A stretch of 64,000 nucleotides of DNA from Halomarina litorea (GTDB taxonomy: Archaea; Halobacteriota; Halobacteria; Halobacteriales; Haloarculaceae): positions 2,563,655-2,627,654 of the forward strand of contig NZ_CP100448.1 of the NCBI RefSeq assembly GCF_024227715.1, in the 5' to 3' direction. Positions 8,254 to 53,222 of the stretch are shown here, one piece after another. Numbering within the stretch: the first letter of the stretch is position 1; each line of letters begins with the position of its first letter. Made by a program: the position numbers and the translations under genes. Below the pieces are notes generated by a model. It was given only the letters and a program-made list of their open reading frames with translations, made no database searches and was not told the DNA's origin.

Positions 8254-9258
8254 ATGGTAGACAACTCCCAGCTTGCCGAGAGCAAGTCCATCCACAGGCG
8301 GACCGGCAAGACGTTCTACTACGCCACCCGCCTGCTGCCCCAGCGGGTCCGCCGCGCGACGTACGTCCTCTACGCGTTCTTTCGTATCTCCGACGAGGTA
8401 GTCGACAGCGCGGGACAGAGTCCCGCCGGTGGCCGGACGCAGTCCGGCGACGACACCGACTTCACGCCGAAGCAACAGCGAGAGCGGCTCCTCTCTATCC
8501 GCGACCAGGCGCTCGGCCGCGAACCGACCGACGAACCGGTCCTCGCGGCGTTCGACGAACTCAGGCGCGAGGTGGGCATCGAGGACGAGGAAGTCGAGGT
8601 GTTCATCGACGCGATGCTCACCGACATCGAGAAGACGCGCTACGAGACGTACGACGAACTCGAGGCGTACATGCGCGGGTCGGCGTCGGCCGTCGGCGAG
8701 ATGATGACCTCCGTGATGGGGCCGGAGGACCCGGCGACGGCGCGGCCGCACGCGCAGAAACTCGGCGAGGCGTTCCAGTTGACGAACTTCCTGCGGGACG
8801 TCCGCGAGGACATCGTCGAGCGCGGGCGCATCTACCTCCCGCAGACGACGCTCGCCGAGTACGGGGTGACCGACGAGCAACTCGAACGCTTCGAGGTGGA
8901 CGAGGCGTTCCGCGACGTGATGCGTCACGAACTGCGCCGCGCGGAGGGACTCTACCGCGAGGGGGTGGCGGGCATCGAGACGCTCCCCGAGGACTGCCAG
9001 TTCCCGGTGTTGCTCGCGTCAGTGCTGTACGCCGACCACCACCGACTCATCCGCGAGCGGAACTACGACGTGCTCTCGGCCACGCCGCAGTTGAGCACCC
9101 TGCGGAAACTGACGCTCGTCGCCAAGACGGGCGCGCTCTGGTCGCTCTCGAAGGACCCCGAGCGCGTCTTCGCGCGCGTCAGCGCCATCCCGATGGGGAG
9201 CGACCACCGCCACGGCCGCCCCGACCACGAGGCGGGCGAGGCCCGTCCCGCACAGTAG
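8254..9258 (+). CDS. crtB: phytoene synthase
   Basis: CrtB condenses two geranylgeranyl diphosphates to phytoene, the committed step toward haloarchaeal bacterioruberin. The 334-residue protein shows both Asp-rich Mg-diphosphate motifs: DEVVD at 47-51 and NFLRDVREDIVERGRIYLP in the second half. ARPHAQKLGEAFQLTN precedes the latter, as in all trans-isoprenyl head-to-head synthases. The insert at about 53-72 (GQSPAGGRTQSGDDTDFTP) is a short haloarchaeal linker. The C-terminal tail is His/Gly/Glu-rich. The other carotenoid genes lie downstream on the opposite strand. Confidence 0.95.
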   Translation: MVDNSQLAESKSIHRRTGKTFYYATRLLPQRVRRATYVLYAFFRISDEVVDSAGQSPAGGRTQSGDDTDFTPKQQRERLLSIRDQALGREPTDEPVLAAFDELRREVGIEDEEVEVFIDAMLTDIEKTRYETYDELEAYMRGSASAVGEMMTSVMGPEDPATARPHAQKLGEAFQLTNFLRDVREDIVERGRIYLPQTTLAEYGVTDEQLERFEVDEAFRDVMRHELRRAEGLYREGVAGIETLPEDCQFPVLLASVLYADHHRLIRERNYDVLSATPQLSTLRKLTLVAKTGALWSLSKDPERVFARVSAIPMGSDHRHGRPDHEAGEARPAQ

Positions 9259-9873: not shown

Positions 9874-10725
9874 CTACCGCCCGGGCCACGGGACGGACCG
9901 CCGCACGTCGAAGTCGAAGCGGTCGGTGTACAGGAGACCGACGCCGAAGACGGCGGCGACGGCGACGGGGACGAGGTTGCCGAAGTAGGCGTTGACGACA
10001 CCCCACAGGAGGACGAAGCTCACGAGGTCGTCGAGCATGAACGCGCACGCTTCGACGCGTCGGAGGAGGCCTGTCCGGTCGAACCCCCTGTCGAAGGCGA
10101 CGACGGCCACCGTCGCGGAGACGACCCATCCGAGATAGTTCGAGGCGGGCACGTCGTAGTAGGGCCACTCGCCGACGTACTCCCAGAAGCCGAGCGACAC
10201 CGCGGCGGGGTCGAGGACGAGGTCCATCGCGACGACGGCGGCCACCACGACTGGGAGTCGGACGAGCGCCGACTCCGCCCGTCGCCCGAGCAGGAGGAGA
10301 CAGAGCAGGTAGCTGTTCAACACGAGGGGGAAGAAGAAGACGGGGAGCGCGAGGGGAATCTCGCCGAACAGCATCGGCCCGAGGGCCACCTCGTAGCTGA
10401 ACTCACCGTAGGGCCACCCGGTCGTCACGCCGAGCAGTTCGATACCGTAGGCGTAGGCGGTGAGCGCGAGGAGCGCGACCCCCGCCTTCCGGTCGACGAG
10501 GGGGGCCACCCCCGCGACGAGGGGCAGGCGCATCACCAGCACGCCGACGAGGATGAGGTAGGGGTTGAAGTTCAGCGGACCGGGGAGGAGCGACTCGGCG
10601 CTGGCGACGAGCAGTACCGCACCGACGACGGGGAAGACGACGGCGATGGTGAAGCGGTTCTCGCGGACGAGGCCGTCGAGGCGGCGCTGGGCGCGTTCGC
10701 GGTCGAACCCGGCGACCTCACCCAT
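9874..10725 (-). CDS. cruF: carotenoid hydratase (bisanhydrobacterioruberin hydratase, CruF)
   Basis: CruF adds water across the terminal double bonds of bisanhydrobacterioruberin, the last step to bacterioruberin. The 283-residue protein is a polytopic membrane protein with about seven or eight hydrophobic segments. It contains the family's conserved polar patches: GIELLGVTTGWPYGEFSY, MDLVLDPAAVSLGFWEY and ASNYLGWV. The start overlaps the end of lyeJ by 8 nt, showing translational coupling within crtD-lyeJ-cruF. The short cytoplasmic N-terminus (about 20 residues) is Arg-rich. Confidence 0.93.
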   Translation of the reverse strand: MGEVAGFDRERAQRRLDGLVRENRFTIAVVFPVVGAVLLVASAESLLPGPLNFNPYLILVGVLVMRLPLVAGVAPLVDRKAGVALLALTAYAYGIELLGVTTGWPYGEFSYEVALGPMLFGEIPLALPVFFFPLVLNSYLLCLLLLGRRAESALVRLPVVVAAVVAMDLVLDPAAVSLGFWEYVGEWPYYDVPASNYLGWVVSATVAVVAFDRGFDRTGLLRRVEACAFMLDDLVSFVLLWGVVNAYFGNLVPVAVAAVFGVGLLYTDRFDFDVRRSVPWPGR

Positions 10726-11598: not shown

Positions 11599-13098
11599 TC
11601 ACTCGTCCTCTACGAGCGTGTTCGCCGTATGCTCTCCGCTGATGAGGCACATGGGGACGCCGATGCCGGGGGTGGTGTACCCGCCCGTGAAGTAGAGGCC
11701 GTCGACGGCCGACGAGCGGTGGCCGGGCCGCAGGAGGGCCGTCTGTCGGAGCGTGTGCGCGAGGCCGCCGAGCGCGTTCCCGCGATAGGCGTTGTAGCGG
11801 TCGGCGAAGTCGGCGACGCAGAACTGTTCCTCGAAGACGATGCGGTCGCGCACGTCGACGCCCGTGTTCTCCGCGAGGTCCGCGAGGACGAACTCGCGGT
11901 ACTCCTCGCGGAGCGCCTCGGTGTCTTCCAGTCCGGGCGCGACGGGGACGAGGACGAACAGGTTCGAGTGGCCCTCCGGTGCGACCGAGTCGTCGGTGAC
12001 GCTCGGGGCACAGACGTAGTAGGCGGGTTCCTCGGGCCACCCCGGGTCCGAGAAGATGCGCTCGAAGTGGCCGTCCCACTCCGTCGGCAGGACGAGTGAG
12101 TGGTGTTCGAGGGGGTCGATGTCGCCCTCGACGCCGAGGTAGAGGAGGTACGCCGAGGGCGAGTAGGTCTTGCCCGCCCAGTAGTCGTCGTCGTACTGGC
12201 GTTCGTGGTCGGGCAGGAGGTGCTGTTCGACGTGGGCATAGTCGGCGTTGGCGACGACGCGGTCCGGGCGTCGCACCTCCCCGTCCGCGGTCTCGACGTG
12301 GAAGCCCGCCTTCCGTTTCGTGATCTCGACCACCTCGCTTCCGGTGGTGTAGGTCACCCCGAGCTCCCCGCCGAGTTCGACGAGACCGTCGACCACCGCG
12401 CCGATACCCCCGTCGGGGTAGAACACGCCCATGTTGAAGTCGACGTGCGACATGATGTTGTAGAGCGCCGGGGTGTTCCCGGGAGCACCCCCGAGGAAGA
12501 CCAGCGTGTACTGCATGATCTGCTGGAGTTTGGGGTGCTCGAAGTACTGGGAGACGTAGTCGTCCATCGTCCCGACCAGTTTCAGGCCGATGGGCGCGGC
12601 CTTCATCACGTCGAGGTCGACCCAGTCGCGCAGTCGGGGGCGGTCCTCGTAGACGAAGTGCTCCATCGCCACGTCGTAGTGCGTCTCGCTCGTCGCGAGG
12701 TACTCCTGCAGGGCGTCGCTCGCGCCGTCCTCGTAGGACTCGAAGGTGTCGAGCATCGTCTCGCGGTCCGCGACGACGTCCGCTCGGTCGCCGTCCTTGT
12801 AGAAGATCCGGTAGTGCGGGTCCAGTCGCTGGAGGGTGTAGTAGTCCTCGACCGAGCGGTCGAAGTGTGAGAAGAACCGCTCGAACACGTCGGGCATGAG
12901 GTACCACGACGGGCCCATGTCGAAGCGGAAGCCGTCGGCCTCGAGGCGGGAGGCCCGGCCGCCCACCTGTTCGTTCTTCTCGAGTACCTCGACGTCCGCC
13001 CCGGCGTCCGCGAGGTAACAGGCCGTCGAGAGACCGCCGAACCCGCCACCGACGACCACCACCGACCGTCCGGCCAGCGGTGAGTCCTGTCGCTGCAT
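11599..13098 (-). CDS. crtD: carotenoid 3,4-desaturase (phytoene desaturase family)
   Basis: This 499-residue FAD flavoprotein is of the CrtI/CrtD class. The N-terminal dinucleotide-binding fold is VVVVGGGFGGLSTACYLADA followed by VLEKNEQVGGRAS (residues 12-50). The C-terminal FAD motif is YFTGGYTTPGIGVPM, preceded by a typical RRP-like substrate region. Its place at the head of the lyeJ-cruF operon identifies it as CrtD, which introduces the 3,4 double bonds in bacterioruberin synthesis, rather than CrtI. CrtI is expected elsewhere in the genome. The start at 13098 faces the SDR at 13223. Confidence 0.92.
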   Translation of the reverse strand: MQRQDSPLAGRSVVVVGGGFGGLSTACYLADAGADVEVLEKNEQVGGRASRLEADGFRFDMGPSWYLMPDVFERFFSHFDRSVEDYYTLQRLDPHYRIFYKDGDRADVVADRETMLDTFESYEDGASDALQEYLATSETHYDVAMEHFVYEDRPRLRDWVDLDVMKAAPIGLKLVGTMDDYVSQYFEHPKLQQIMQYTLVFLGGAPGNTPALYNIMSHVDFNMGVFYPDGGIGAVVDGLVELGGELGVTYTTGSEVVEITKRKAGFHVETADGEVRRPDRVVANADYAHVEQHLLPDHERQYDDDYWAGKTYSPSAYLLYLGVEGDIDPLEHHSLVLPTEWDGHFERIFSDPGWPEEPAYYVCAPSVTDDSVAPEGHSNLFVLVPVAPGLEDTEALREEYREFVLADLAENTGVDVRDRIVFEEQFCVADFADRYNAYRGNALGGLAHTLRQTALLRPGHRSSAVDGLYFTGGYTTPGIGVPMCLISGEHTANTLVEDE

Positions 13099-48271: not shown

Positions 48272-48745
48272 ATGAGCGATTCGGAGAAGGAGGGTCGGTT
48301 CGTCGTCACGCACGCCGAGAGCGACAGCGCCGTGTTGAAAGACGTCGACGACGGGCAGGTCCACACGCTCGGGTCGAACCCCGGCGTCGAGGAGGGGGAC
48401 GTCCTCAGCGCGACGCTCGCCCCGGACCCGCCCCTCGAGGTGACCTGGCAGGTCGTCGAGGTGGAGACGCGACGCACCGTCCGAATCGAACGGAGCGAGG
48501 AACCCCCGACGACACAGGAGCGAGACATCGCCGCCGGGCAGGACGTGGGCGACCTGACGCGGGAGGAGCGGGCGGGGAAAGGCGAGATACACGTCCTCAC
48601 GGTCCCGCCGGAGGAGACGGAAGACGCCGTATCGGACGTCCTCGACGACGAGGCAACCGTCGTCCGGGCCGCCCGGATGGACGAGGTGAACCGCGTCGAG
48701 GTGCGCGCGCGCGACGGCGTCGTGAGCGTCCGCTATCTCCCGTAG
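48272..48745 (+). CDS. conserved haloarchaeal protein, DUF5812-like (157 aa)
   Basis: This acidic soluble protein has two halves. Residues 1-75 look like an all-beta module (GRFVVTHAESDSAVLKD, VHTLGSNPGVEEGDVLSATL). Residues 80-157 include HVLTVPPEETEDAVSDVLDDE and end in VRAARMDEVNRVEVRARDG. The pattern matches DUF5812 as recalled. The function is unknown. It lies 39 nt after the membrane protein and 28 nt before the convergent terpene-synthase-like gene. Confidence 0.82.
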   Translation: MSDSEKEGRFVVTHAESDSAVLKDVDDGQVHTLGSNPGVEEGDVLSATLAPDPPLEVTWQVVEVETRRTVRIERSEEPPTTQERDIAAGQDVGDLTREERAGKGEIHVLTVPPEETEDAVSDVLDDEATVVRAARMDEVNRVEVRARDGVVSVRYLP

Positions 48746-48773: not shown

Positions 48774-49778
48774 TTACTTCATCCCGCGGCTGGCGAGGTG
48801 ATACTCCATGACCGTCTCCATCCCCTCGATGAACCGCTGGGTGTCAACGCTGTCGACGCCGTAGTCGCGGTTCGAGACCTCCTCGTGGCGCTGGTCCCAC
48901 TCGGCGAGGAACGCCTCCTCGACGCCCCGTTCCTTGATGCGCTGGGCGACGCGGTCCAGGTCCTGGTTCGCGGGGTCGAGTTCGTCGGGCGCGACGATAC
49001 CGTCCTGAAGCGCCTGAACGATGACGCCCGCCGAGTAGTCGCCCTCGGTGAGTTCGCGCTCCCACGTCGTGACCCAGTTGCCGATGCGCGCCATCTTCTG
49101 GAGGTCCCAGGTGAGGTCGCGGAGGCCGCTCAGGTCGGACTGGTCGAACGTCGGCGAGAACATCAGGTCGATGTCGGTGTACGAGAACAGGACCATGTTG
49201 TGCGCGCCGTACGTGCGCGCTCCCGTCCCGTTCGCGAGGTGTTTGTTGTCGCTGACGAGGCGGGTGTACTCCATCGCGTTGAACCCCTGCCGGATGTCGT
49301 ACTGGAGGATGCTCCGGAACTCGTCGTAGCGGGGGGCACCCTTGAGTCGGACCTCGATGCGCGACCAGACGTCCTGGACGAACTCGAGGACGTCCGCGTC
49401 GACACCCGGTCGGTCCGGGTCGACGGTCTGGGGTGCCGTCGCCACACGGCACGCCTCGTCGAACGTCGACGTGTCCCGTCGGGACTCGATGAGGTCGTCG
49501 AGGGTGGTGATGTACACTGTAAAGAGCGTCTTAATCTCCTTGACGTGTCCTCGGTCCGCGGCGGGGACCGACGAGAGGGTGAACGCGTCGAACAGTTTGT
49601 GGATCCACTGCCAGAGGAACCGGTCGCGGTCGTCCATTACACGCTCGTACTCCCCCGCCACGTCGACGACGACGGAGGGGAGTTCGACTGTCGTGATCTC
49701 GGTGATGAGATCCGTCGGTTCACGCTCTGCCAAGAGCGTCCGCTGATTGGTTGTGGGCTCGACCAGATCGTGTGCCAT
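48774..49778 (-). CDS. class I terpene-synthase-like protein (isoprenoid synthase fold), substrate unknown
   Basis: This 334-residue helical protein has no membrane segment. It contains DDLIE at 94-98 (an Asp-rich Mg-diphosphate motif of the DDxxE type). NWVTTWERE at 234-242 places Asn234, Thr238 and Glu242 in the NSE triad. Arg188 sits exactly 46 residues before Asn234, where class I cyclases have their diphosphate-sensing Arg. The motif spacing (139 residues) is canonical. It is unlike CrtB or prenyl transferases in sequence. Start ATG 49778 is preferred: a TATA-like TTTAATAA lies upstream at 49822-49829 and earlier ATGs overlap it. It is divergent from the sensor gene at 49959. Confidence 0.75.
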   Translation of the reverse strand: MAHDLVEPTTNQRTLLAEREPTDLITEITTVELPSVVVDVAGEYERVMDDRDRFLWQWIHKLFDAFTLSSVPAADRGHVKEIKTLFTVYITTLDDLIESRRDTSTFDEACRVATAPQTVDPDRPGVDADVLEFVQDVWSRIEVRLKGAPRYDEFRSILQYDIRQGFNAMEYTRLVSDNKHLANGTGARTYGAHNMVLFSYTDIDLMFSPTFDQSDLSGLRDLTWDLQKMARIGNWVTTWERELTEGDYSAGVIVQALQDGIVAPDELDPANQDLDRVAQRIKERGVEEAFLAEWDQRHEEVSNRDYGVDSVDTQRFIEGMETVMEYHLASRGMK

Positions 49779-49958
49779 GCCAGCTAAATCGTAGCAATAG
49801 GGGGACGTAAATGTTTGCATTATTAAATCCTTTTCGAGAGATATTCTGAAACTGGTGAATGAAACAGTCATGAAACTGGATATGTTTAGAGCAATCGTAC
49901 ATATATCCGGTATTCCCGGTCGAACAATTTATTTAGACGCAGGTATGCTGGTTACTCG
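49779..49958. promoter_or_regulatory. AT-rich divergent promoter between the terpene-synthase-like gene and the sensor gene
   Basis: This 180-nt gap is strikingly AT-rich. On the minus strand, TTTAATAA (49822-49829) lies about 45-50 nt upstream of ATG 49778, giving a short leader. On the plus strand, TTTATTTA (49928-49935) lies about 27 nt before ATG 49959, giving a leaderless sensor mRNA. The shared region suggests that the sensor controls the pair. Confidence 0.65.
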
Positions 49959-52850
49959 ATGATTTCGGGTCGGGCACAGAAAGAAACGACAGCATCACTC
50001 GTTCGTATGCTTCACGTAACGAGCGATGCAGGCGACCAGACGGGGAGTAGTACCTCGGTCACGGCCGTCGACGACTTCCAGGAGGCGTTCGACCACGTCG
50101 AGGCCGAGGCCCCACTGGACTGTATCGTGTGTGACGAACGAATCGGTGACGACTCCGGGCTGGAGTTCATCGACGAGGTGCGCGCACGCGGGGTGGACTT
50201 ACCCATCCTCGCGCGGGTCGCCCCGGAGTCGGCCGCCGACGCCCTCGCCGCGGGTGCCACCGACGTGGTGAGTCCGACGGCGTCTCCCGAGGTACTCGAC
50301 CGGCGGCTTCAAACCGTCGTGGACGCGTACGCGGGAGACCACGACCGACTCGTCCGGCGTGAGGCCATCGCGGATCTCCGCCAGTCCGCACTGGAGGGGG
50401 TCGGCCTCTCCCGACTGTTCGAGGAGTCGACTGCGCTCATCGAGGCGACGCTCGGCATCGACCGCTGTGGCCTGTTCGAACACCGCGTCGACGAGGACAG
50501 TCTCGTCCTGCGGGCGGAGACCGGGTGGGCGGGTGACCTCGACGCGCTGACCGACGACGACTCCCTCGCGCACAACGCCCTGCTCGCCGACGGCCTCGTC
50601 TGTGCCGACGGCGGCGACGGCTCCATCACGGGCGGTATCGCGGTCGGTCTCGACGTCGAGGGCACCCCCTGGGGCGTCCTCGCAGCCTACACGACCGACG
50701 GCCGGGAGTTCGGCGCGAGCGAGCGCGAACTCCTCCAGCGGGTCGCCGGCATCCTCGAACCCGTCATCGCGCGCGAACAGCGCCACCGGGAACTCGAACG
50801 CTACGAGACCATCCTCGACACCATCGACGACGGCATCTACGCGCTCGACCCGAACTTCCGCATCGAGTGGGTCAACGACGCCGTCACCAACCAGACGGGC
50901 TACGACGCCGACGAACTCATCGGGTCGCACTCCTCGCTGCTCGCACAGGACGACGTCTTCGAGATGGTCGAGAAACTGTCCCAGCAGATGGTCGAGGAGG
51001 GCAGCAACGTCGCCAGCCTCGACACCAACCTCGCCACGAAGACCGGGGATACGCTCCCCATCGAGACGCGCTTCTCGATGCGCGAGCGACAGGACGGGAG
51101 CCACGGGTTCGTCGGCGTGGTCCGCGACATCACGGACCGGAAGCGCTACGAGCAGACCCTGACCGCGCTCCACGACTCCACGCGGGACCTCCTGCACGCC
51201 GAGTCGAAACACGACGTCAGCGACCTCATCGTCGCCACCGCACAGGACGTCCTCGACATGCAGGGCGTCGGCGTCTACCTCTTCGACGGCGAGGCCGGCC
51301 AACTCGAACCCGCCGCCTGGTCCGACGAGATGGCGGAACTCACCGGCGGCCTTCCCGCCGTCGGCCCGCAGCACCCCGCACTCGCGTGGCGGACGTTCGT
51401 CGCCGGCGAACTCCTCTCGTACGACGACATCCGCGAGACGGACGACGTGTACAACGAGGAGACGCCGTTCCGTTCCGGGCTGTACGTCCCCCTCGGGGAA
51501 CACGGCGTGCTGTTCGCCGAGTCCACCGAGATCGCCGAGTTCGACCCACAGCTGACCGAACTCGTCGACCTGCTGGCCGCGAGCGCCGAGGCCGCACTCG
51601 ACCGCGTCGAGCGCGAGGACGAGATTCGCCAGCGCGACAGCGAACTGCGCGAGCAGAACGCGATGCTGACCGGCCTCAAGCGCACGAACGACATCATCCG
51701 CTCCATCGACAGCGCGCTGGTGCAAGCCGACACCCGCGAGGAGATCGAGCGGGCGGTCTGCGAGAAACTCGTCACGGCCGACGAGTTCGCCTTCGCGTGG
51801 ACCGGCGTGCTGGAGGACGGCGGCGAGCGCCTCGCCCCCCGGTCGTGGGCCGGCGACGAACGGGGCTACCTCGACACCGTCGACCTGTCGCCGGGCGAGG
51901 AACACGCCGAGCCCGCCGCGCGGGCGGCCGCCGTCCGCGAACAGGTCGTCGTCAGCGAGGTCGCGAGCGGCTTCCAGGCCGAACCCTGGCGGCGCACCGC
52001 GCTCTCGAACGACTACCTCTCGGTGCTCGCGGTGCCGCTCCTGCACGGGAGCGTCCTCTACGGCGTCCTCACCGTGTACGCGACGAAGCAGGACGCCTTC
52101 GACGAGATGACGCGCGCGGTGCTCGGCGAACTGGGTCAGACCATCGCCAACGCCATCAACAACGTCGAGACGCGGCGGACGATGCTCGCCGACCGGGTCG
52201 CCGAGATCGAACTCCACATCGACGACGACGACATGTTCCTGCGGACGCTCGCCGAGACCGCCGAGTGTCGATTCGAGGTCGACGACGTCATCCAGGAGTC
52301 CGGCGGCTCGGCGCTCGTGTTCTGTAGCGGCGTCGACGCCGACCCCGAGAAACTGCAGGCGCTGGAAGAGGAGTTCGTCGGCGTCGAACACGTCGGCATC
52401 ATCGCCGAGGACGACGAGGCGGTGCGCTTCGAGATGCGCCTCTCGGGCGACACCATCACCCAGACGCTCACCGACTGCGGGGCCGTCACCCGCTCCATCG
52501 CCGTCGACGACACCGGGACGCGCGTCGTCGTCGAACTCCCGCAGGACGCGGACGTCCGGGAGTTCGTCGAGGCGGTCCAGACGACCTATTCGGGGGTGGA
52601 CCTCATCGCGCGGCGCAACCGCTCGTCGTCCGCCCAGACCCGCCGCGACGTGCGCTCGGGCATCTCCGAACGGCTGACCGACCGCCAGCACGAGGTGCTC
52701 AGGACGGCGTACGCCAGCGGCTTCTTCGAGTGGCCCCGCGACCGCACCGGCCAGGAGGTCGCCGACTCGCTGGACATCTCCCAGCCGACGTTCAACAAGC
52801 ACCTCCGGGCCTCCGAGCGCAAACTATTCTCGATGCTGCTCGAGGGCTGA
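49959..52850 (+). CDS. multi-sensor Bat-type transcription regulator: receiver-like, GAF, PAS, GAF, GAF and HTH_10
   Basis: This 963-residue protein is modular. Residues 17-125 look like a receiver with the phospho-Asp position kept (VCDERIGDDSGLEF), but the first acidic pair and the Lys are missing. A GAF follows at 140-275. A PAS lies at about 285-400 (ILDTIDDGIYALDPNFRIEW, VRDITDRKRYE), then GAFs at about 405-560 and 575-740. A BAT domain is at about 750-890. HTH_10 is at 905-960 (LTDRQHEVLRTAYASGFFEWP, DISQPTFNKHLRASERKL). It senses light, redox or a ligand and binds DNA. It is probably leaderless. Confidence 0.92.
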   Translation: MISGRAQKETTASLVRMLHVTSDAGDQTGSSTSVTAVDDFQEAFDHVEAEAPLDCIVCDERIGDDSGLEFIDEVRARGVDLPILARVAPESAADALAAGATDVVSPTASPEVLDRRLQTVVDAYAGDHDRLVRREAIADLRQSALEGVGLSRLFEESTALIEATLGIDRCGLFEHRVDEDSLVLRAETGWAGDLDALTDDDSLAHNALLADGLVCADGGDGSITGGIAVGLDVEGTPWGVLAAYTTDGREFGASERELLQRVAGILEPVIAREQRHRELERYETILDTIDDGIYALDPNFRIEWVNDAVTNQTGYDADELIGSHSSLLAQDDVFEMVEKLSQQMVEEGSNVASLDTNLATKTGDTLPIETRFSMRERQDGSHGFVGVVRDITDRKRYEQTLTALHDSTRDLLHAESKHDVSDLIVATAQDVLDMQGVGVYLFDGEAGQLEPAAWSDEMAELTGGLPAVGPQHPALAWRTFVAGELLSYDDIRETDDVYNEETPFRSGLYVPLGEHGVLFAESTEIAEFDPQLTELVDLLAASAEAALDRVEREDEIRQRDSELREQNAMLTGLKRTNDIIRSIDSALVQADTREEIERAVCEKLVTADEFAFAWTGVLEDGGERLAPRSWAGDERGYLDTVDLSPGEEHAEPAARAAAVREQVVVSEVASGFQAEPWRRTALSNDYLSVLAVPLLHGSVLYGVLTVYATKQDAFDEMTRAVLGELGQTIANAINNVETRRTMLADRVAEIELHIDDDDMFLRTLAETAECRFEVDDVIQESGGSALVFCSGVDADPEKLQALEEEFVGVEHVGIIAEDDEAVRFEMRLSGDTITQTLTDCGAVTRSIAVDDTGTRVVVELPQDADVREFVEAVQTTYSGVDLIARRNRSSSAQTRRDVRSGISERLTDRQHEVLRTAYASGFFEWPRDRTGQEVADSLDISQPTFNKHLRASERKLFSMLLEG

Positions 52851-52946: not shown

Positions 52947-53222
52947 ATGAGCACCGACGACGCGGGCACACGACGACACGACACACACCAGCGGTCGCTC
53001 ACCATCGAGATCGTTCGCGCCCTCGCCGCCGAACACGGCTGCCGACCCGAGGCCCTCCGGCCACGACTGTACGAGGCGATCGACCCCGACGCACTCGAAG
53101 CGCTGTTCGCCCCCTGCGGCGACGGCACGCCGCGGGCGCCTGGCTGCGTCGTCTTCGAGATTGGGTCGTTCGAGGTCACCGTCGAGGGCGACCGGAACGT
53201 CTCCGTGGCGTCGGCCGAGTAG
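52947..53222 (+). CDS. HalOD1-domain protein (91 aa)
   Basis: This small protein carries the haloarchaeal output domain HalOD1: LTIEIVRALAAEHGCRPEAL, PRLYEAIDPDALEALF and a beta finish (CVVFEIGSFEVTVEG). HalOD1 is usually attached to response regulators; stand-alone forms are frequent and their targets unknown. It is 96 nt downstream of the large sensor gene and 79 nt upstream of secF. Confidence 0.88.
   Translation: MSTDDAGTRRHDTHQRSLTIEIVRALAAEHGCRPEALRPRLYEAIDPDALEALFAPCGDGTPRAPGCVVFEIGSFEVTVEGDRNVSVASAE

Follow-up and report, generated by a model that had tools for sequence, protein, structure and literature searches.

A class I terpene-synthase-like protein family of haloarchaea and its linkage to Bat-type regulator genes

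Does a short haloarchaeal gene of no recognized family encode a working terpene synthase, and what is its relationship to the signalling genes that surround it? Plant, fungal and bacterial terpene synthases have been studied in detail; to our knowledge those of archaea hardly have, and archaeal isoprenoids are usually regarded as membrane lipids and carotenoids. We examined these questions for a gene (P0002) located in a 64,000 nucleotide stretch of the Halomarina litorea genome (‘the window’), in which an earlier sequence-only reading had recognized terpene-synthase-like motifs. The gene and its motifs are as follows:

48774..49778, (-) strand: class I terpene-synthase-like gene P0002, 334 amino acids (open reading frame, predicted fold and family conservation)
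49485..49499, (-) strand: Asp-rich motif DDLIE, residues 94–98 (family alignment)
49053..49079, (-) strand: NSE motif NWVTTWERE, residues 234–242 (family alignment)
49215..49217, (-) strand: Arg188, proposed diphosphate sensor, not conserved (family alignment)

Predicted fold and motifs of P0002

Translation of the P0002 open reading frame (48774–49778) indicated that it is unbroken. The frame stays open upstream, with an ATG at 49871; relatives of the protein begin at the equivalent of position 49778, and for one of them (L003) no other start is possible. The residues to which the sequence-only reading had drawn attention (DDLIE at 94–98, R188, and N234, T238 and E242) were all present in the translation where they had been placed. 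When the sequence of P0002 was shuffled, a DDxx[DE]...Nxxx[ST]xxxE pair with a spacing of 110–180 residues arose in 0.6% of the shuffles, and the same pair accompanied by an arginine at position −46 in 0.05%. At such rates the motifs by themselves are suggestive, and conservation and fold must decide.

An AlphaFold2 model of P0002, generated with 21 family members as input, displayed a pLDDT of 89.4 and a pTM of 0.88. The class I isoprenoid-synthase alpha-helical fold spans the whole protein, as judged from the model and from its comparison with known structures using VIA-align. A Foldseek search of the PDB with the model returned class I isoprenoid synthases, the top match being the N-domain of geosmin synthase, and the matches listed by VIA-align (Z 19.8–21.3, rmsd 3.0–4.2, 263–291 residues) were terpene synthases in 50 of 50 cases. 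A direct sequence search of P0002 or its profile against solved structures gave no meaningful match. The suggestion that the protein adopts a class I terpene-synthase fold is therefore upheld by structure prediction, which yielded the isoprenoid-synthase fold.

FPP synthases are also found among the Foldseek matches, and the fold alone is therefore no proof of a terpene synthase; the predicted fold would assign P0002 to the superfamily, while its motifs point to a terpene synthase. The same fold could instead carry prenyl-diphosphate synthesis, head-to-head condensation, or a hydrolase or lyase reaction on a prenyl diphosphate that yields a linear alcohol, and the sequence does not reveal the type of product. 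We nevertheless regard such a non-cyclizing activity as unlikely, given that the second motif is of the NSE type with no second Asp-rich motif, that profile similarity to the CrtB protein encoded in the window is absent, that the Pfam matches obtained for the family are to Terpene_syn_C_2 and (weakly) to Terpene_synth_C, and that the structural matches listed by VIA-align are all terpene synthases.

Family conservation and the diphosphate site

Conservation was counted in an alignment of 71 distinct members of the P0002 family. Within the Asp-rich motif, position 94 is Asp in 68 of 71 members (Asn in two and Glu in one), D95 is invariant, and position 98 is Glu or Asp in all 71. Within the NSE motif, N234, W235, R241 and E242 are each found in 71/71 members, and position 238 is Thr in 70 and Ser in one. 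R220, R231, D204, D247, W56, W58, W239 and P149 are likewise invariant (71/71), and K83 is kept in 67 of the 71. The NSE motif of the family (N-W-x-x-(T/S)-W-x-R-E) is thus canonical save for a Trp in place of Asp at its second position, a position at which the Asp is no metal ligand in known enzymes. The expectation that DDxxE and NxxxTxxxE would be conserved throughout the family holds, with the metal and diphosphate ligands invariant or nearly so.

The same alignment does not sustain the view, taken in the sequence-only reading, that R188 (46 residues before the NSE Asn) acts as the diphosphate sensor. That residue is Arg in P0002 itself and in 16 of the 71 members overall, with Glu in 26 and Trp in 11, and R188 was ruled out as the sensor on these counts; judged from the aligned sequences, its presence in P0002 is a coincidence or a feature of the clade, and no feature of the family. 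Nor was a conserved Arg–Tyr pair found after the NSE motif, as no Arg past R241 reaches 95% in the 71-member alignment. Because R188 is not conserved, recognition of the diphosphate must depart from the textbook description, and because both the −46 Arg and an Arg past R241 lack conservation the diphosphate site is non-canonical. R220, R231 and K83 are candidates, on the basis of their conservation, to stand in for the contacts of the sensor Arg. The family also represents a test case for how a terpene synthase can function in the absence of the textbook diphosphate-sensing arginine.

P0002 shares with bacterial class I terpene synthases (PF19086) a full-length alpha-domain fold, a similar length, and the motifs DDxx(E/D) and N-x3-(S/T)-x2-R-E located about 140 residues apart. 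The bacterial examples compared were the N-domain of geosmin synthase (5dz2), T-muurolol synthase (9hqm), epi-isozizaene synthase (3kb9) and hydropyrene synthase (8b4m), and identity to P0002 in structure alignments is 9–13%. Unlike the bacterial enzymes, the archaeal family displays Trp at the second NSE position in 71/71 members, does not conserve the −46 sensor Arg or the post-NSE Arg, and has sensor genes as neighbours.

P0002 is very probably a working relative of the terpene synthases; we infer its catalysis, metal number, substrate and product from fold, motifs and conservation. In the mechanism that we envisage, D94 and D95 (with E98) together with N234, T238 and E242 would hold metal ions, with help from R241. 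A prenyl diphosphate of C15 or C20 chain length (possibly C25) would be bound and ionized by these metals at its diphosphate group, and quenching of the carbocation in the helical pocket would give a linear or cyclized terpene. Haloarchaea are rich in GGPP.

Breadth and annotation of the family

A search of P0002 against Pfam and NCBIfam yielded no family match. The Terpene_syn_C_2 profile (PF19086; curated cut-off 23.7 bits) was matched by 17 of 21 relatives of P0002, several of them above the cut-off. Haloferax volcanii, one of the control genomes, gave no PF19086 match. The closest relative tested (75% identity) matched profile positions 2–179 with an E-value of 0.0035 and a score of 17.6 bits, and other family members scored up to 35.5 bits. 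Matches to Terpene_synth_C in the family were weak. The family, for which there is no NCBIfam model and which falls mostly below the Pfam cut-off, is thus missed by standard annotation.

Of 391 sampled Halobacteria genomes, 120 contain a member, and members occur in 39 of 86 genera, a distribution that is widespread but patchy. Terpene_syn_C_2 matches also occur in three genomes of another class of the same phylum, and a protein from one of these (L103) scored 265 bits with the P0002 family profile. No relatives were confirmed in viral contigs (IMG/VR). At two loci of that other class (L122 and L123, in genomes G541 and G557) the synthase gene is divergent from a gene for an FAD enzyme that is weakly geranylgeranyl reductase-like, below the curated cut-off. 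The genome that contains P0002 also encodes a paralogue (L057, G000:C1:582352-583311) that is 40% identical to it, scores above the Terpene_syn_C_2 cut-off and is transcribed divergently from the gene for a diol dehydratase reactivase. In a distant subclade (L095 and L096) NDLSD replaces DDxxE, and both genes are divergent from a small glutaredoxin-like gene. Synthase copies in two genomes (L068 in G041; L021/L025 in G006) are split across two frames, and are therefore apparently broken or mis-sequenced.

The window also contains carotenoid genes, about 36–40 kb away from the synthase:

8254-9258, (+) strand: squalene/phytoene synthase family gene
9874-10725, (-) strand: Caroten_synth family gene
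11599-13098, (-) strand: CrtI-like amine oxidoreductase gene

Comparison of P0002 with the window's own CrtB using hhalign gave a probability of 0.3%, and P0002 has no Pfam match to SQS_PSY; no kinship between the two proteins was found on the former result, and the earlier remark that P0002 does not look like CrtB stands.

Terpene synthases from archaea have been announced previously, and the class of enzyme can therefore not be considered new: the title of a preprint by Samusevich et al. (bioRxiv 10.1101/2024.01.29.577750, cited in PMC12797696) claims archaeal terpenoid biosynthesis, archaeal terpene synthases are mentioned as characterized in PMC13235557, and a Halomicroarcula genome paper reports terpene clusters, in passages that do not name the enzymes. 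The P0002 family may already include a characterized member among the archaeal enzymes of Samusevich et al. In the literature compared, which did not extend to that preprint, we found no description of the breadth of the family, of its non-canonical diphosphate-binding residues or of its co-inheritance with sensor genes.

Sensor and regulator genes adjoining the synthase

The immediate surroundings of P0002 in the window comprise the following:

48272-48745, (+) strand: DUF5812 gene, convergent with the synthase
49779..49958, no strand: divergent intergenic region in which AT-rich blocks, putative promoters, are conserved near each of the two starts (four Halomarina-type loci aligned)
49959..52850, (+) strand: Bat-type sensor/transcription regulator, 963 amino acids, with a divergent REC domain and with PAS, GAF, BAT and HTH_10 domains (Pfam)
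52947..53222, (+) strand: stand-alone HalOD1 protein, 91 amino acids (Pfam HalOD1, E 3.8e-21); recurs near the synthase

The regulator gene lies upstream of P0002 and is transcribed divergently from it, with the HalOD1 gene coming next, and its domain order (REC-PAS-GAF-BAT-HTH_10) is that of the Bat-type architecture. With 55 HTH_10 matches in 3.9 Mb, the genome has a large complement of Bat-like regulators. The signals to which known Bat responds are low oxygen and light. A LOV-type light-sensing function was considered for the PAS domain of the regulator and was dropped, as its match to the YtvA family is weak; no flavin-binding Cys motif was found in it by eye. Both the REC-PAS-GAF-BAT-HTH_10 architecture and stand-alone HalOD1 proteins have been described (PMC5847659). 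In Halobacterium salinarum, low oxygen leads Bat to induce bop, and bat is located near the phytoene synthase gene crtB1 (PMC2253796), such that a Bat-type regulator near an isoprenoid enzyme gene is common to both systems. The enzyme there is a phytoene synthase in an opsin/retinal cluster, whereas here it is a terpene synthase, and the locus in the window differs further in its distinct regulator group and in its HalOD1 protein.

An orthologue of the regulator was found in 47 of 391 genomes, many of which belong to the single genus g6, and it adjoins the synthase gene, 90–973 bases away, in 42 of the 47. In the other five (L117–L121), which are the regulator-positive ones among 271 synthase-negative genomes, the synthase was not found, and tblastn detected no synthase remnants at those regulator loci. 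In one of them, from the same genus (G005), gene order around the regulator is intact and the synthase cleanly absent. The existence of these five genomes implies that the regulator has other targets or that the synthase was lost. The gene had been termed an orphan; in the genomic sense that description fails, as within its own clade it travels with a Bat-type regulator and often with a HalOD1 protein.

The linkage could reflect chance or the mere shared ancestry of neighbours, without function. Bat-like genes are abundant in haloarchaea (the 55 HTH_10 matches in this genome being an example), the predominance of genus g6 among the regulator-positive genomes would fit such a reading, and the branch that places the 14 synthase-adjacent regulators on one side of a 27-member tree has modest support (74/70). 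We consider this reading rather improbable, because the adjacency extends across three families (f1, f4 and f6) and 11 genera and because the neighbours remain together while their orientation and order vary. At L078 the order is synthase, regulator and HalOD1 on one strand, at L058, L061, L062 and L063 it is regulator, HalOD1 and synthase on one strand, and in other groups of regulator-bearing loci the synthase and regulator are divergent; the association thus outlives rearrangement. The adjacent regulators also form one distinct score class with a model of the regulator trained on 12 orthologues (and, like the HalOD1 and kinase models, seeded from the synthase loci themselves), scoring 875–1202 bits against at most 394 for other locus genes and at most 600 for own-genome paralogues; L058 and L061, which are outside the training set, still fall within the 875–1202 range. 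The branching of the synthase-adjacent regulators largely mirrors the synthase tree.

In other branches (L071, L073, L075, L087, L088 and L091) a PAS-HATPase kinase gene adjoins the synthase, its products scoring 535–553 bits with the kinase model against at most 154 for other genes. Across 35 non-redundant loci, with genes called from composition by a simple script, which overlooked some of them, a PAS domain is present in 15 of 59 immediate neighbours and in no more than one of 63 fourth neighbours, a comparison whose p-values ignore relatedness; the absence of such enrichment at fourth neighbours also argues against a chance linkage.

Signalling genes are the commonest neighbours of the synthase, the family does not conserve the canonical sensor Arg, and no recurrent tailoring enzymes of a terpene cluster were found among the immediate haloarchaeal neighbours. 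Each of these speaks for P0002 being a non-catalytic sensor, one that would bind GGPP or FPP together with metal and signal the isoprenoid status to the adjoining Bat-type regulator or kinase. We find this quite unlikely, as all of the metal ligands, both ends of the NSE motif included, are kept in the 71 members, many family members have no adjoining sensor gene, and the presence of the regulator without the synthase in five genomes is hard to square with a required co-sensor. We favour catalysis over ligand sensing, as the metal ligands are invariant and no output domain is fused to the protein. A further possibility, to which we give even less credence, is that the synthase makes a terpene that serves as a haloarchaeal signal, with the dedicated PAS/GAF Bat-type regulator or, in other branches, the PAS kinase sensing that terpene or its precursor; were this true, terpene and regulator would constitute a small-molecule signalling circuit in archaea.

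We return to a catalytic class I terpene synthase that acts on a C15/C20 prenyl diphosphate and is switched by its own sensor-regulator, which we hold to be the likely explanation of the locus. The divergent Bat-type regulator and its HalOD1 partner would control expression of the synthase upon an environmental cue; such control by the regulator is probable within the clade of P0002, given the linkage and co-inheritance of the two genes, and by analogy with known Bat the cue is likely to be oxygen, redox or light. This suggests that haloarchaea with the linked regulator make a terpene in response to a signal. If so, many haloarchaea (approximately one third of the sampled genomes) make regulated terpenoids, one large branch of them with its own sensor.

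Two further features of these loci were observed. In one clade, of family f7 (L066, L067, L072, L081, L089 and L092), a divergent gene for a metallo-beta-lactamase-fold hydrolase takes the place of the regulator beside the synthase. The genes that flank the regulator in G005 and G254 appear unchanged, as after a clean loss, and the synthase-less G005 retains a relative of the DUF5812 gene beside the regulator.
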